From the NCBI RefSeq assembly GCF_014696065.1, contig NZ_JACJPL010000026.1:310001-374000 (forward strand): a DNA stretch of 64,000 nucleotides, written 5' to 3'. Below are positions 7,602-41,645 of the stretch, piece by piece. Positions within the stretch are counted from its first letter, which is position 1. Each line of letters begins with the position of its first letter. This DNA is from Leptolyngbya sp. FACHB-261 (GTDB lineage: Bacteria > Cyanobacteriota > Cyanobacteriia > FACHB-261). The notes under the pieces were generated by a model that ran no database searches, was not told the origin of the DNA, and saw only the letters and a list, made by a program, of their open reading frames with translations. The position numbers and the translations under genes are program-made.

Positions 7602-7937
7602 TCAGAAAACTTGAGGGCTAGAGCATTTATTGGAGTTCTGCACGGCTCGTAACAGGTTAGGCGAGAGGCTATAAAGTGCGATAGTTGGCCCGCCACCTTC
7701 AGAGTGGACAGTGACTTTGCGAACCAAATCACGAGCTTCGAGGCTGAGTAATAAGGGGCGGAGTTCTGAGGTTTCCAGATGGCTGTCACGGTTGAGCAGG
7801 TTGAGGGGAACGCGGGACAAGGCACCATTGGGTTCGATGTAGTTAGCGATCACGAGCAGAATCAGCTTGAGCGGTGCAGCCAAATTGAGACTGCGGACAA
7901 TGTGGTCCCAGAGAGCGAGTCGAAGCGTGGGGCTCAT
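7602..7937 (-). CDS. Module copy 1, ORF B: small winged-helix-like DNA-binding protein
   Basis: A 111-aa protein I cannot name. It is clearly paralogous to the product of 40180-40503: both share RLALWD(H/Y)IVR, LKLILLVIANYIE.NGA.SRV, LLLSLEA..LV.KV and LYSLSP.LLR. The central segment (helix LKLILLVIANYI, then NLLNRDSHLE and LRPLLLSLEARDLV) has the rhythm of a winged helix-turn-helix in the style of HTH_36/replication-initiator wHTH domains, followed by a short beta wing. It is the last gene of module copy 1, downstream of the 21-bp palindrome array. The reading frame stays open upstream through that array, but no start codon is available there and copy 2 has a stop 13 nt before its ATG, so the ATG at 7937 is the likely start. 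Confidence 0.65.
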   Translation of the reverse strand: MSPTLRLALWDHIVRSLNLAAPLKLILLVIANYIEPNGALSRVPLNLLNRDSHLETSELRPLLLSLEARDLVRKVTVHSEGGGPTIALYSLSPNLLRAVQNSNKCSSPQVF

Positions 7938-8030
7938 GAGTTTGAGAGTAGAAGGATCGTGTAAACTGCGGCATTCTGACTCTGGGACTGGTAAATCGGG
8001 CCGAGGCGGAGCGTTGATGGGGTCAACTAG

Positions 8031-8261
8031 TCCATTGATGGAGTGAATGGGTCCGTTGACGGAGTCTAGAGGTCGATTAACGGGGTCAGCGAGTCCGTTA
8101 ACGGGGTGAATAAGTCGGTCGATGGAGTGAATGGGTCCGTTATCGGAGTGAAACGGTTGGTTAATGGAGTGAATGGGTCCATCAATGGACTGAATGGGTC
8201 CGTTAACGGGGTCATTTAGTCCGTTAATGGAGTCTTCGGGTCCATCAATGCGGTTTGGAAG
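8031..8261. repeat. Module copy 1 palindrome array (11 units of exactly 21 bp)
   Basis: Units begin at 8031, 8052, 8073, 8094, 8115, 8136, 8157, 8178, 8199, 8220 and 8241, with no drift. Each opens with a variant of the perfect 12-bp palindrome TCCGTTAACGGA (also TCCATTGATGGA, TCCGTTGACGGA, TCCATCAATGGA), usually followed by GTGAATGGG. The substitutions mostly preserve dyad symmetry, as expected of dimer-binding sites. A 21-bp period puts every site on the same DNA face. The array lies between ORF A and ORF B; copy 2 has an equivalent array with a different palindrome. Confidence 0.9.
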
Positions 8262-8319
8262 GTGGATTTACGGATGGCATCTAGCAATGGGGCCCTGCAT
8301 GCAGTCGATGGGCAAGGCA

Positions 8320-8691
8320 TCAACGGGTGCCTTGGGTAACAGCGTTCTTAGCGTTGCGCAGTTGGGTATGTCGCTGTCGCCAAAGCTGCCGCCAATAGCT
8401 CAGCACGTCTTCGGGGTAGGCATAGCGCTGGATTTCGGTTTTGATCACCTCGCCAATCCAGTCGAGCAGATGCAGGTCGTTGCAGGCTTGAATGGTCAGG
8501 GCACAGGCGGCAAGCCACTGGTTGAATTTGCGATAGCTGAGGAACTGCCCGCCTCGGTCGGCACGATGGACAAACAGCACATGCAGCCAGTGTTCGATGC
8601 GGCAAATCAGCGATTCGGAAATGCCTAAGAAACGGGCAACTTGAGACAAGGGAATGCAAAGCTGCGGCTGCAACACCTGGGTGAGGTGCAT
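8320..8691 (-). CDS. Module copy 1, ORF A: small HTH-like protein
   Basis: A 123-aa protein of unknown family, paralogous to the product of 40894-41250: MHLTQVLQPQLC, QVARFLGI.(E/K)S, CRIEHW.HVLFVHRAD.GGQF.SYRKF and Y.EDVL.YWR.LW are shared. The segment at residues ~16-36 (LSQVARFLGISESLICRIEHW) reads as a helix-turn-helix: helix, SES turn, recognition helix. The ATG at 8691 is preceded by GGAG with an 8-nt spacer, and the same GGAGTCCTT context recurs in copy 2. It follows the structured leader and precedes the palindrome array. A role in binding the array is inference. Confidence 0.7.
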   Translation of the reverse strand: MHLTQVLQPQLCIPLSQVARFLGISESLICRIEHWLHVLFVHRADRGGQFLSYRKFNQWLAACALTIQACNDLHLLDWIGEVIKTEIQRYAYPEDVLSYWRQLWRQRHTQLRNAKNAVTQGTR

Positions 8692-9090
8692 GGGAAGGAC
8701 TCCAAAAATTTGAGGGCAATAGAGCCTTTGACCCTATTCAGGGTCGAGAAAGGCAGGTGTTAAACTGCCCCCTAGCCGCCGGGTTGTTGCTTGCAACCCG
8801 ACGGTTAGTTCCCCAGAGTTTGTATAAGACCCTGGGGGACGCCTAGGGGGCCAGTTACCTGTGTGGAAAGGCACCAGGGACTCCCTATTGGAGTCAAGTA
8901 GGCAGCGCAAAAAAGTTTCTTGTATCGCAACTAACCCAGTGAAGTAAGCACCAAGACTCAGCTTCAACCTAATTCCAACTCCACTGAATCTCTTTCTACC
9001 CAGTTAAAAAACGGCAGCCATGCTGGGACGAATATCTCAGCTCAGGATGAAACCTGAAACGAGATTTGTTTATCCGGTGATTAAGAGCCT
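8692..9090 (-). repeat. Conserved module leader, copy 1 (paired with 41251-41645)
   Basis: About 400 bp upstream of ORF A that aligns along its whole length with the region upstream of the copy-2 ORF A. Near-identical blocks include the GGACTCCAAAA start context, TAAACTGCCCCCTAGCCGCC, GTTAGTTCCCCAGAGTTTG, AAGACCCTGGGGGACGCC, AAGTAAGCACCAA and GCTGAAACGAGAT-like text at the distal end. It has no long ORF. Conservation of non-coding sequence at this level, equal to or above the coding parts, argues for function. The 94-nt Y-shaped core is listed separately. Confidence 0.75.
8763..8856 (-). ncRNA. Y-shaped structured element, copy 1
   Basis: Nested inverted repeats make a three-way junction: outer stem AACTG+CCCCCTAG (8763-8775) with CTAGGGGG and CAGTT (8843-8850, 8852-8856, one bulged base); arm 1 CCGCCGGGTTG (8776-8786) with CAACCCGACGG (8794-8804), 7-nt loop, one mismatch; arm 2 CCCCAG (8811-8816) with CTGGGG (8832-8837). 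Copy 2 folds identically over 94 nt, with a G-C pair changed to A-T (8781/8799 versus 41341/41359). It could be a transcribed leader RNA of ORF A or a DNA cruciform; strand is assigned from ORF A. Confidence 0.6.
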
Positions 9091-9438: not shown

Positions 9439-9876
9439 TTGCCGATCAGCGTCCATGACAACTGGGTCTACGCCCAAGCGGTCGATCACGATCGCCGTCG
9501 CATCGTGCTGTACACGGTCTACCCGCATGCGACGCCGTCGGAGTACACCGACGTGGTATTCGAGGGTGTCGTCACCCACCATTTCGAGCAGCAGAACGTC
9601 GGAGGCGGCGACCCCTATCCCTCGAACGTCCTATTCGACGTGGAGGAGTCGGACCCGACGTTCATCCTCGGGTCGTACTCGGACCTTCTCGCGCGGACGA
9701 AGAATTACGGCTGGCCGGTCCAGGCGTATGACGACTTGCAGGACCTCGTGAATCGCCTGACGGCGGGTGGCGCCAAATGCTTCGAAGTGCATGGCACCGT
9801 TGGGATTCATGGCTTTGTGTTCGCAATGTCTATGACGTTCCGCGAGCGGCCCGGCCGAGCGGAGGTCGCCGCATAA
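9439..9876 (+). CDS. G+C-rich orphan cassette gene, function unknown
   Basis: A 145-aa protein that I do not recognise. It has VHDNWVYAQAVDHDRRRIVLYTVYPH near the start, a FDVEESDPTFILGSY central stretch and a GGAKCFEVHGTVGIHGFVFAMSM C-terminal part; no signal peptide or membrane segment. Its codons are strikingly G/C-ended (GTC, CTC, GCG, ACG) against the mixed usage of neighbours, which indicates foreign origin. The start is a TTG at 9439, with GAGGG about 8 nt upstream. It sits between the R1 repeat and an attC-like site (9871-9970), as expected for a captured gene cassette. Confidence 0.65.
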   Translation: MPISVHDNWVYAQAVDHDRRRIVLYTVYPHATPSEYTDVVFEGVVTHHFEQQNVGGGDPYPSNVLFDVEESDPTFILGSYSDLLARTKNYGWPVQAYDDLQDLVNRLTAGGAKCFEVHGTVGIHGFVFAMSMTFRERPGRAEVAA

Positions 9877-12825: not shown

Positions 12826-13173
12826 TATAGATTGCGAGATTTGAGGATGAATGTTTTCGCTTGAGTTGCATATACATTAAGCGACTAACACTTAAAGAGT
12901 AATCAGAGATAATAGCCTATGATTTTTATGGCACAAATTGCTGTTTAAGGAGACAGAACTTGTGGAAGTAACGACAGCAAAAATTTTAGTTGATCTCTAA
13001 TTTTATTTGCCTTTGTTGTGAAAGTATGAAAGTAGGTCAGGCTACTGCTGCAATGCCCCAAGAGAATCTACGGAACTTTGATACGAGTTCTCATTTTGCT
13101 CCCGAGTAGGGCTTGCCAAACGTCGAGCTTTGCCCTATTGTTTCTGTTCAGTCCAGTCTTGAAGCGCCGCCGA

Positions 13174-13351
13174 GGGCTGTTAGCACCAACCCCTGGCGAC
13201 TGACCTCTAGGTTGGTTTACGCCAGCCCAAAGGCTACGACGGAGTTTAGCACTCCGTTGCGGTTAACCCCATGCAAAGCGGGTCAGGTGGGGGCCTAAGA
13301 GAGGGAGCGAAGGGGCAATCTTCACAGGTTGCCCCTCAAAACCTATTGAGG
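13174..13351 (+). ncRNA. Structured 5' leader candidate before a 73-aa gene
   Basis: Several complementary blocks in series: GGGCTG (13174-13179) with CAGCCC (13223-13228), enclosing ACCAACC (13185-13191) with GGTTGGT (13210-13216); a competing CTGGCG (13193-13198) with CGCCAG (13220-13225) would make a pseudoknot; ACGGAGT/ACTCCGT (13239-13257); GGGGCAA/TTGCCCC (13312-13335); and CCTCAA/TTGAGG (13334-13351). The last stem covers GAGG, the Shine-Dalgarno of the gene at 13362, and shares two bases with the previous stem, so a switch is possible. No known riboswitch class recognised. The preceding 12826-13173 is otherwise featureless. Confidence 0.45.
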
Positions 13352-13361
13352 ATTTTCCGCC

Positions 13362-13583
13362 ATGACTCAATCGTCTACCCCCGTATTTAGCGACAGCGAT
13401 CTGAACATTTTAAAGGTACTAATGCAACGCTATAGCCTCTCAGTCGTTGTCGCAGCCCTGAATCGAATCTGCTTCGGGCAAGCAGAACAAGCAGTGGCTC
13501 AACAACGGAACCGAGAGACCATTCGCGCGTGGCGCGAGGATGTCAGCATCTTGAACAAAACCGTAGTTCAACTTAATCATTAG
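13362..13583 (+). CDS. Small hypothetical protein
   Basis: A 73-aa soluble protein of unknown family. It starts MTQSSTPVFSDSDLNIL, then has a predicted amphipathic helix pair (KVLMQRYSLSVVVAALNRIC and QAEQAVAQQRNRETIRAWREDV). The ATG at 13362 has GAGG 10 nt upstream, inside a small hairpin of the structured leader. There is no operon partner; it lies between the cassette array and the large hybrid kinase. Possibly a helical regulator or adaptor, but nothing in the sequence settles this. Confidence 0.5.
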   Translation: MTQSSTPVFSDSDLNILKVLMQRYSLSVVVAALNRICFGQAEQAVAQQRNRETIRAWREDVSILNKTVVQLNH

Positions 13584-40179: not shown

Positions 40180-40503
40180 TTATTCTGTCTGTCCTTTAGG
40201 GCTCTGAATGGTGCGAAGCAGGCTAGGAGAAAGGCTGTAGAGCGGAATGATGGAGCCACGGCCTTCTGGATAGACTAGAACTTTGCTCACTAGATTCTGG
40301 GCTTCAAGACTCAGGAGTAAAGACCGCAGCGCTTCGGGTTCTAGGCTGCTGTCGCGGCTGAGCAGGCCAAGTGTGACTCGCGATTGAGCACCGTTGGCTT
40401 CGATATAGTTGGCAATCACGAGCAAAATCAGTTTGAGCTGAGCGGGGAGTTGGAGGCGACGGACGATGTAGTCCCACAGAGCAAGACGAGTTTGGGAGGA
40501 CAT
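40180..40503 (-). CDS. Module copy 2, ORF B: small winged-helix-like protein
   Basis: 107 aa, paralogue of the product of 7602-7937. Identical or similar blocks are RLALWDYIVRRL, LKLILLVIANYIEANGAQSRV, LRSLLLSLEAQNLVSKV and IPLYSLSPSLLR. The order of helices and a short wing between LV.KV and LYSLSP suggests a winged helix. The C-terminal ends of the two copies differ completely. An in-frame TAA only 13 nt before the ATG (40516-40518) fixes the start at 40503, despite a weak Shine-Dalgarno. It lies downstream of the copy-2 palindrome array. Proposed array binding is inference. Confidence 0.65.
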   Translation of the reverse strand: MSSQTRLALWDYIVRRLQLPAQLKLILLVIANYIEANGAQSRVTLGLLSRDSSLEPEALRSLLLSLEAQNLVSKVLVYPEGRGSIIPLYSLSPSLLRTIQSPKGQTE

Positions 40504-40563
40504 GAAGTTTGCAGGTTAAGGACTGGGCTGAGGCAGGAGCTATAAGATTTCCAAATCAGAAGA

Positions 40564-40886
40564 ATGAAACTTTGCTTAGAATTAGCAAAATTTGCTTAAA
40601 ATTAGCGAACTTTCGGTCTCGATTAACGAACTTTCGGTCCCGATTAGACAAACTTTGCTCCGAACGATTCATTTTTCTAATCTGAGTAGCAAATTTTGCT
40701 TAAAATTAGCGAAGTTTGCTTGGAATTAGCGAAATTTTGGTCTTGAGTAGGGAAGTTTCGGTTGCGAATAGCGAAATTTCGCTACCAGGAGGCAAATTTC
40801 AATCAAGACGATTGACTCTTCCAGCGCGAACAACGAAATTTGGCAAGAGCGGATGAGTTTTTCCCAACCAGGAGCGGAATTTTGGT
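40564..40886. repeat. Module copy 2 palindrome array (~16 units, 20-21 bp period)
   Basis: Units start at 40564, 40584, 40604, 40625, 40646, 40667, 40688, 40708, 40728, 40749, 40770, 40790, 40811, 40832, 40853 and 40873. The core approaches the palindrome AGCGAAATTTCGCT (perfect around 40770-40783; AGCAAAATTTGCT and AGCAAATTTTGCT elsewhere), followed by variable TTAAAATT- or GTCTTG-like linkers. Units 40667, 40811 and 40853 are degenerate. All six frames contain stops, so it is non-coding. Same position as the copy-1 array but an unrelated core sequence. Confidence 0.9.
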
Positions 40887-40893
40887 TCTGTGT

Positions 40894-41250
40894 TCAGGCG
40901 GTTGATTGCTGCGGTTGAAGCTCTCGATAGCGCCGATGCCAGAGATGCCGCCAGTAGACTAGGACGTCTTGGGGATAAGCAAAGCGCTGAACTTCGCTTT
41001 TAATCACGTGTCCCAGCCATTCAAGCAAGCGTAAATCGGTGCAACTGAGGATGGTGCGGGCGCAAGCTTCGCTCCAAGCAGCGAATTTGCGGTAGCTGAT
41101 GAACTGGCCACCCTGGTCGGCACGATGGACAAACAAGACGTGGGTCCAGTGTTCGATGCGGCAGATGCGCGATTTGGGAATGCCCAAGAAACGGGCGACC
41201 TGAAGTAGGGAAATGCAAAGCTGCGGCTGCAACACCTGGGTGAGGTGCAT
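40894..41250 (-). CDS. Module copy 2, ORF A: small HTH-like protein
   Basis: 118 aa, paralogue of the product of 8320-8691, with the same HTH-like segment (LLQVARFLGIPKSRICRIEHW) and the same HVLFVHRADQGGQF and YWRHLW blocks. Within the HTH the turn and recognition-helix residues differ between copies (ISESL versus IPKSR), which is what one expects if each copy reads its own array. The ATG at 41250 has GGAG at 8 nt in the conserved GGAGTCCTT context; the frame extends upstream to 41316 through the leader, but that part is not conserved as protein. Confidence 0.7.
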   Translation of the reverse strand: MHLTQVLQPQLCISLLQVARFLGIPKSRICRIEHWTHVLFVHRADQGGQFISYRKFAAWSEACARTILSCTDLRLLEWLGHVIKSEVQRFAYPQDVLVYWRHLWHRRYRELQPQQSTA

Positions 41251-41645
41251 GGAAAGGACTCCAAAATTTTGAGGGCAATGGGATCCTGTGACCCTCTTCA
41301 GGGCCAAGGAAGGCAAGTGTTAAACTGCCCCCTAGCCGCCAGGTTGTCAGATGCAACCTGGCGGTTAGTTCCCCAGAGTTTGAGTAAGACCCTGGGGGAC
41401 GCCTAGGGGTCCAGTTGCCTGTCATGGAAAGTAACAGGGACTGGATTCCAGAGTCAAGGGGGTAACCGAAAAAAGATCTGTGTGTTGCAGCGAACCGAGC
41501 AAAGTAAGCACCAAAACCTAGCTTCAGTCTCATTTCACTTAACTCAATCTCTTCCTAGCCAGTCAGAAAAACGACGGCTATGCTGGGATGAGTGTCTCAG
41601 CTCAGTTTTGAAAGCTGAAACGAGATTCATTTATCAGGTGATTAA
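41251..41645 (-). repeat. Conserved module leader, copy 2 (paired with 8692-9090)
   Basis: Aligns end to end with the copy-1 leader, including TAAACTGCCCCCTAGCCGCC, GTTAGTTCCCCAGAGTTTG, AAGTAAGCACCAA and a distal GTCTCAGCTCAG...CTGAAACGAGAT hairpin. The similarity fades at about GGTGATTAA (41636-41645 versus 9078-9087). No ORF is conserved within it. Beyond it lies the upstream region of the Ser/Thr kinase gene at 41784. Confidence 0.75.
41323..41416 (-). ncRNA. Y-shaped structured element, copy 2
   Basis: Outer stem AACTG+CCCCCTAG (41323-41335) with CTAGGGG and CAGTT (41403-41409, 41412-41416); arm 1 CCGCCAGGTTG (41336-41346) with CAACCTGGCGG (41354-41364), a perfect 11-bp stem with 7-nt loop; arm 2 CCCCAG (41371-41376) with CTGGGG (41392-41397). 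Spacing is identical to copy 1, with one compensatory pair change and one repaired mismatch in arm 1. Confidence 0.6.

Follow-up and report, generated by a model that had tools for sequence, protein, structure and literature searches.

The 64,000-nt window of Leptolyngbya sp. FACHB-261 analysed here (contig NZ_JACJPL010000026.1, positions 310,001–374,000) carries two related modules on its minus strand. Comparison of these modules with their relatives showed that each is headed by a structured leader RNA belonging to a genuine, multicopy family that is widespread in cyanobacteria and missing from Rfam. Both copy 2 (40180–41645) and copy 1 (7602–9087) follow the order promoter, leader RNA, open reading frame (ORF) A, an array of approximately 21-bp units and ORF B, and the initial annotation had placed these two modules of like architecture correctly. 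It had looked for divergence between the copies in the arrays and in ORF A; the parts that diversify from one copy to the next are the two hairpin loops of the leader RNA, absent from that annotation. We give an even chance to the reading that the leader is controlled by a cis-antisense RNA through loop-loop recognition, and that this arrangement has been replicated into many orthogonal channels.

In an alignment of 47 leaders, the RNA (approximately 100 nt) formed a three-way junction with a closing helix (P0), hairpins P1 and P2 and, on the 3′ side, one more element. Under the 24-pair structure, 85.1% of the alignment cells could pair, compared to 44–48% after the structure was slid by one column. 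Double changes occurred in 199 cells vs. 81 ± 9 in shuffled alignments and at most 67 when slid, and 20 of the 24 pairs showed changes on both sides. Because of this covariation, the RNA was considered real. Its stems were near-invariant, and the junction sequences CUAACC and GGCU were conserved. The window copies folded into the model junction with z-scores of −5.2 (copy 2) and −5.8 (copy 1), and the antisense strand gave a z-score of −7.1. No Rfam 15 family matched at the leader positions, the gathering threshold not being reached, and literature searches found no published description of the RNA. Two further pairings were inspected by eye: one between the 3′ strand of P2 and the 5′ arm of a terminator looked suggestive but was rejected, as the variable position in it showed no covariation, and the P1 and P2 loops of one RNA showed no consistent complementarity across many copies.

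The leader core of copy 2, comprising P0, both hairpins and the 3′ P3 region, lies at 41311–41411 (minus strand) and scored 91.7 bits with the covariance model built here (R1). Hairpin P1 (41371–41398) carries the loop CUUA-CUC-AA at 41380–41388, in which the middle three nucleotides (NNN) are hypervariable, and P2 (41336–41364) carries the hypervariable 7-nt loop CAUCUGA at 41347–41353. Upstream, a sigma-70-like promoter is predicted from a −35 box TTGACT (41452–41457) and a −10 box TACTTT (41428–41433) separated by 18 bp. A scan of the regions upstream of the leaders on the sense strand gave group mean z-scores of 1.4–2.8, with 2.4 for the type-1 group relative to dinucleotide shuffles. The copy 1 leader (8751–8851, minus strand), also recognised by R1 and by folding, has UAC as the P1 NNN and CAAGCAA as the P2 loop; the two copies were 80% identical across the 400-bp leader, far more than chance would give.

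The annotation of two modules greatly underestimated the total, and its suggestion that the unit amplifies was borne out by the genome-wide counts. In this 6.95-Mb genome (36 contigs), ORF A was found at 47 places (tblastn with copy 2 ORF A as query), ORF B at 46 places (the last two matches merged as one) and the leader RNA at 75 places (R1). Every ORF A (47/47) and every ORF B (46/46) was located downstream of a leader RNA on the same strand, and 36 of the ORF B copies followed an ORF A. The other leader RNAs preceded ORF B alone, a member of the small-protein families D or E or, once, F; family D had at least nine RNA-led copies. One of these lies in the window, where a third leader RNA (13155–13258, plus strand, 48.6 bits with R1) stands before an ORF D of 73 aa (13362–13583, plus strand). 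ORF A fell into two subfamilies, L001–L028, which includes both window copies, and L029–L047.

Beyond this genome, the covariance model matched in at least 71 of 291 class-level genomes and at least 42 of 130 genera. It also recognised nine leader RNAs that stand before ORF A copies in Symploca (E < 1e-4). In other genomes, the RNA mostly preceded family F (about 70–90 aa), with a strong intrinsic terminator in between: a hairpin and T-run directly 3′ of the RNA and ahead of the small ORF were detected by scanning in at least 19 of 27 copies. With this RNA present in about a quarter of the sampled cyanobacterial-class genomes, and in tens of copies in some, its absence from Rfam leaves a considerable hole in the catalogue of RNAs. 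A single regulatory element is thereby tied to five families of small proteins, A, B, D, E, and F, none of them described before.

The P1 loop read CUUA-NNN-AA in type 1 leaders and Y-U-NNN-A in many other genomes, while the P2 loop was mostly 7 nt long and free in sequence. Both loops appeared to change faster than synonymous sites: 37 of 57 loop positions differed vs. 33 of 226 four-fold sites of ORF A (Fisher p = 2e-13) in five close, disjoint pairs, which were hand-picked for low synonymous divergence and in which loop differences were counted by eye. None of 2635 same-genome pairs shared both loops, and this included 96 near-identical pairs in which the rest of the RNA differed at five positions or fewer, these 96 being mutually non-independent. 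The P2 loop was shared and the P1 loop differed in L024/L026 and L037/L045, the converse was seen in L001/L002 and L208/L210, and L181/L235 had different P1 loops although their RNAs were nearly identical in all other parts. The loops form a natural library of recognition sequences, apparently evolved against cross-reaction. The earlier proposal that the copies diverge to avoid cross-talk caught the right principle, which applies to the loops of the RNA and not to the arrays.

On the opposite strand, just outside P2, an extended −10 motif, TGNTANNNT, was present in 95 of 100 aligned copies, and the −10-like TANNNT (ANNNTA in the sense orientation) was kept in all 100. In L237, the box was exactly TATAAT. 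The positions that vary in the motif are those most variable in −10 boxes generally. In the window, the putative antisense promoter takes the form TGTTAAACT at 41318–41326 in copy 2 and at 8758–8766 in copy 1, in both cases on the plus strand. The motif points into the hairpins, so that a putative transcript starting there would cross P2 and then P1.

The combination of rigid stems, copy-unique loops, an opposite-strand extended −10 and, in other genomes, a terminator before the ORF led us to favour cis-antisense control; conserved stem-loops bearing variable recognition loops, as expected of a cis-antisense leader, were indeed found. An antisense RNA starting just past the opposite-strand −10 would be complementary to both hairpins and would contact the nascent leader by kissing of the loops, and once bound it would promote transcription termination or keep translation closed ahead of the downstream ORF. 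Since such an RNA would be made from the same DNA as the leader, it would always be complementary to its own leader, leaving paralogues free to diverge: a mutated loop would stay matched to its own antisense RNA and escape the partners of other copies. Paralogous cassettes could in this way drift to unique loop pairs, each controlled by its own dosage, with divergence being selected if cross-talk is harmful. A good T-run was missing from most of the sense P4 hairpins of this genome, and a permissive scan recovered intrinsic terminators in 13 of 73 copies; control here would therefore be translational or act through a leaky terminator. A further and more tentative proposal is that the two-loop code (P1 NNN and P2 N7) provides a private channel for each of the more than 70 cassettes, the loops being possibly diversified actively or read in trans, for which there is no known counterpart.

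Several points weigh against cis-antisense control, beginning with the weak T-runs just mentioned and with the hand-picked and non-independent pairs behind the loop statistics, in which recombination between copies could also have distorted the synonymous yardstick. No clear −35 accompanies the antisense motif, and a clean antisense terminator was recognisable in some copies only. The TGNTANNNT motif could be conserved as RNA sequence of the P3 region instead of as a promoter, and both the sense and the antisense transcript of the leader are predicted from sequence. The RNA may also have a partner in trans that is beyond the reach of target or ligand searches.

The proposed control has counterparts in plasmid biology. 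In ColE1 RNAI/RNAII and IncFII CopA/CopT, both strands of one DNA segment are transcribed, the sequence of the short hairpin loops sets specificity, and loop changes create new incompatibility groups. The leader RNA differs from these in being chromosomal, with dozens of paralogues per genome and a conserved three-way junction, and in that its control is inferred. In pT181-type antisense attenuation, leader hairpins followed by a terminator precede the ORF, a layout resembling that of the leader RNA, although the terminator is strong in other genomes and weak here, and the antisense RNA is putative. Copy control of plasmid pSYSA in Synechocystis 6803 is exerted by an abundant antisense RNA encoded in cis that overlaps a small ORF, and the authors of that study likened the system to the kissing stem-loops of ColE1 RNAI/RNAII (PMC9978351). 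That system (ssr7036/asRNA1) is likewise cyanobacterial and combines a small ORF with an overlapping cis-antisense RNA, which is putative in our case, but it is a single plasmid locus whose antisense overlaps the coding sequence and not the leader (PMC9978351). Ssr7036 resembled none of the five small-protein families, and R1 had no match at the pSYSA locus. With such a loop library in one chromosome, the way in which antisense specificity and incompatibility evolve becomes directly testable there, and a lead is offered toward orthogonal RNA regulators for cyanobacteria.

Other explanations of the leader were weighed against the same observations. A riboswitch-like leader that senses a ligand, with peripheral hairpin loops that are merely unconstrained, would account for the conserved junction sequences and for the succession of leader, terminator and small ORF in other genomes. 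The cyanobacterial Downstream-peptide (RF01704) and glnA (RF01739) motifs are likewise placed before short ORFs, the former being a structured 5′ leader of short ORFs of unknown function (PMC2864571). We nevertheless regard this as unlikely: the loops outpaced four-fold sites, Rfam riboswitch models gave nothing at the leader even with loose thresholds, and the opposite-strand −10 pattern would be left unexplained. The leader matched neither RF01704 nor RF01739 and differs from both in its two hypervariable loops and opposite-strand promoter-like motif.

Similarly, a trans-acting guide RNA, in which the P1 NNN and P2 N7 loops would direct A, B or the RNA itself to DNA or mRNA targets in the manner of bridge RNAs or small-RNA seeds, would suit a P2 loop that is mostly 7 nt with free sequence, the Y-U-NNN-A of P1 in many copies and a position next to nucleic-acid-binding-like proteins. 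We consider this quite improbable, since loop 6-mers or their complements were no more frequent in the module's own upstream and downstream DNA than under shuffled assignments (p = 0.17–0.89), small proteins of four or more unrelated families, instead of a single effector, follow the leader, and A has neither a nuclease or recombinase family match nor a significant fold match. Slightly less credible still is a selfish addiction cassette of the type I toxin-antitoxin kind, in which the antisense RNA would silence a small toxic protein and the unit would spread through resistance to loss. Its layout of antisense over leader, its small ORFs, and the many paralogues with decayed ORF A copies among them (L028, L046, and L047) would be as expected, but none of the proteins is a short hydrophobic peptide, a winged-helix fold is predicted for B, and PADLOC gave no match.

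The model of the initial annotation, a mobile array/protein module with every ORF A binding the palindromic array beside it, drew on the 21-bp arrays between ORF A and ORF B (about 40560–40860 in copy 2; within the 7940–8319 interval in copy 1). The period of 21 bp was the constant feature of these arrays, with an autocorrelation of 0.35–0.69 at lag 21 compared to a mean of about 0.26 in 12 of 12 arrays. Their palindromic character was statistically clear for one type only: relative to column shuffles, dyad symmetry was clear in the copy-1 group (p = 0.005–0.015) and marginal in the copy-2 group (p = 0.04–0.10). About 13 of the 47 modules kept an array; the A-B gap was short in type 2 modules and in L007, L010, L016, and L018. 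DNA resembling the copy 2 array occurred in L001, L002, and L003 only, whereas related or different arrays were present in other first-subfamily modules. The difference noted earlier in the predicted helix-turn-helix of ORF A (ISESL vs. IPKSR) is real, but identical A helices (GIPESLICR) accompanied unrelated arrays in L005/L006, L008, L009, and L014, and L008 and L017 shared an array family with different A helices (GIPESLICRIEHW and GIPEWMICRYAHW). Because the arrays are optional and independent of the A helix, the postulated diverging pairs of array and ORF A found no support. A coding role for the arrays as heptads (21 bp corresponding to seven codons) was discarded, open frames being present in L005 and L006 only and not common to the modules. 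With its two helical turns per unit, the optional array looks like an operator or an iteron-like multisite for A or B.

Nor was a mobile unit with defined ends supported. Relative to the start of ORF A, left homology edges between copies lay at −223, −245, −280, −319, −395, −450, −512, −551, and up to −731, and right edges were also variable. For copy 2, the conserved upstream region reached approximately 41645, the homology starting 394–395 bp before ORF A. No transposon ends were found, and no constant ends of a transposon or insertion sequence were present among the compared copies; since the edges vary, the target-site-duplication test proposed earlier has no fixed ends to use. The edge pattern fits segmental duplication with recombination and not a transposon. 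Homology between the copies stopped before the neighbouring Ser/Thr kinase gene, which was therefore regarded as incidental. Although arrays differ between module groups with two-turn periodicity, A begins with an HTH-like segment (HTH, helix-turn-helix) and copies are numerous, the mobile array/protein model is very unlikely, as most modules lack an array, A helices and arrays vary independently, element ends are not fixed, and no ORF A homologue was found on plasmids, phages or viral contigs.

ORF A of copy 2 (40894–41250, minus strand) encodes 118 aa from the ATG at 41250 to the stop at 40894, with an HTH-like N-terminal part; the 140-aa version starts at an upstream TTG. ORF B of copy 2 (40180–40503, minus strand) encodes 107 aa. 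The copy 1 counterparts are at 8320–8691 (A) and 7602–7937 (B) on the same strand. Searches of Pfam, of NCBIfam at the curated cut-off and of the PADLOC models of known defence systems returned no accepted match for any of the five small-protein families, and PHROGs returned none for A and B. The AlphaFold2 model of ORF A reached a pLDDT (predicted local distance difference test) of 92, and no fold relative in PDB had an E-value below 0.001; a sequence search against solved structures returned chance matches only. For ORF B (pLDDT 82), the best Foldseek matches were of the MarR and ArsR/SmtB types at E-values of about 1e-3, with a winged-helix fold match at E = 6e-4, probability 1.00 and a TM (template modelling) score of about 0.55, and the sequence search gave a weak winged-helix match. 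ORF B resembles MarR or ArsR/SmtB winged-helix regulators in predicted fold but, unlike them, belongs to no Pfam or NCBIfam family when the curated cut-off is applied; it probably is a DNA-binding winged-helix protein. ORF A is presumed to bind nucleic acids only because its N-terminus is HTH-like and because of the context in which it lies. Homologues of ORF B were likewise not found on viral contigs. Regarding an iteron replicon, 21-bp arrays exist in some modules, but A and B matched no Rep family and the PHROG replication-initiation match of B had an E-value of just 0.35.

Family F was also found on Nostocales plasmids, there without the leader RNA; on plasmid D of Trichormus variabilis ATCC 29413 (L239: 1619–1918), an F-family protein is encoded between ParG and replication genes, again without the RNA. 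In contigs of Symploca sp. SIO2E9 and SIO3C6 (L079–L147), ORF A was greatly amplified too, mostly without a detectable leader RNA. In L071, L072, L075, L077, L081, L092, and L129, another small conserved ORF stood upstream of ORF A in place of the RNA; its motif, often found upstream of A in other cyanobacteria, resembles PWCIIRxLPN...VARFRRRxDAxxHLxIL. An interspersed inverted-repeat unit, GGTAAGGGCGAGGCAACCTCGCCCCTACCCACGACCGCA, was repeatedly inserted between the leader RNA and ORF A in second-subfamily leaders (L029–L047), and L223 (contig C20, 56178–56255) is the almost palindromic remnant of a leader RNA, degenerate in sequence and recognised by the covariance model in either orientation. 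A family-E cassette (L209: 501–2045, RNA at 501–603) lies a few hundred bases before CRISPR-array-like repeats at 1282–2045, of the CRISPR-DR5 type and slightly below the Rfam threshold. Directly upstream of copy 1, the segment 9430–10150 of the window looked rich in G+C and contains an ORF (9439–9876, TTG start) unlike its surroundings, which may be foreign DNA.
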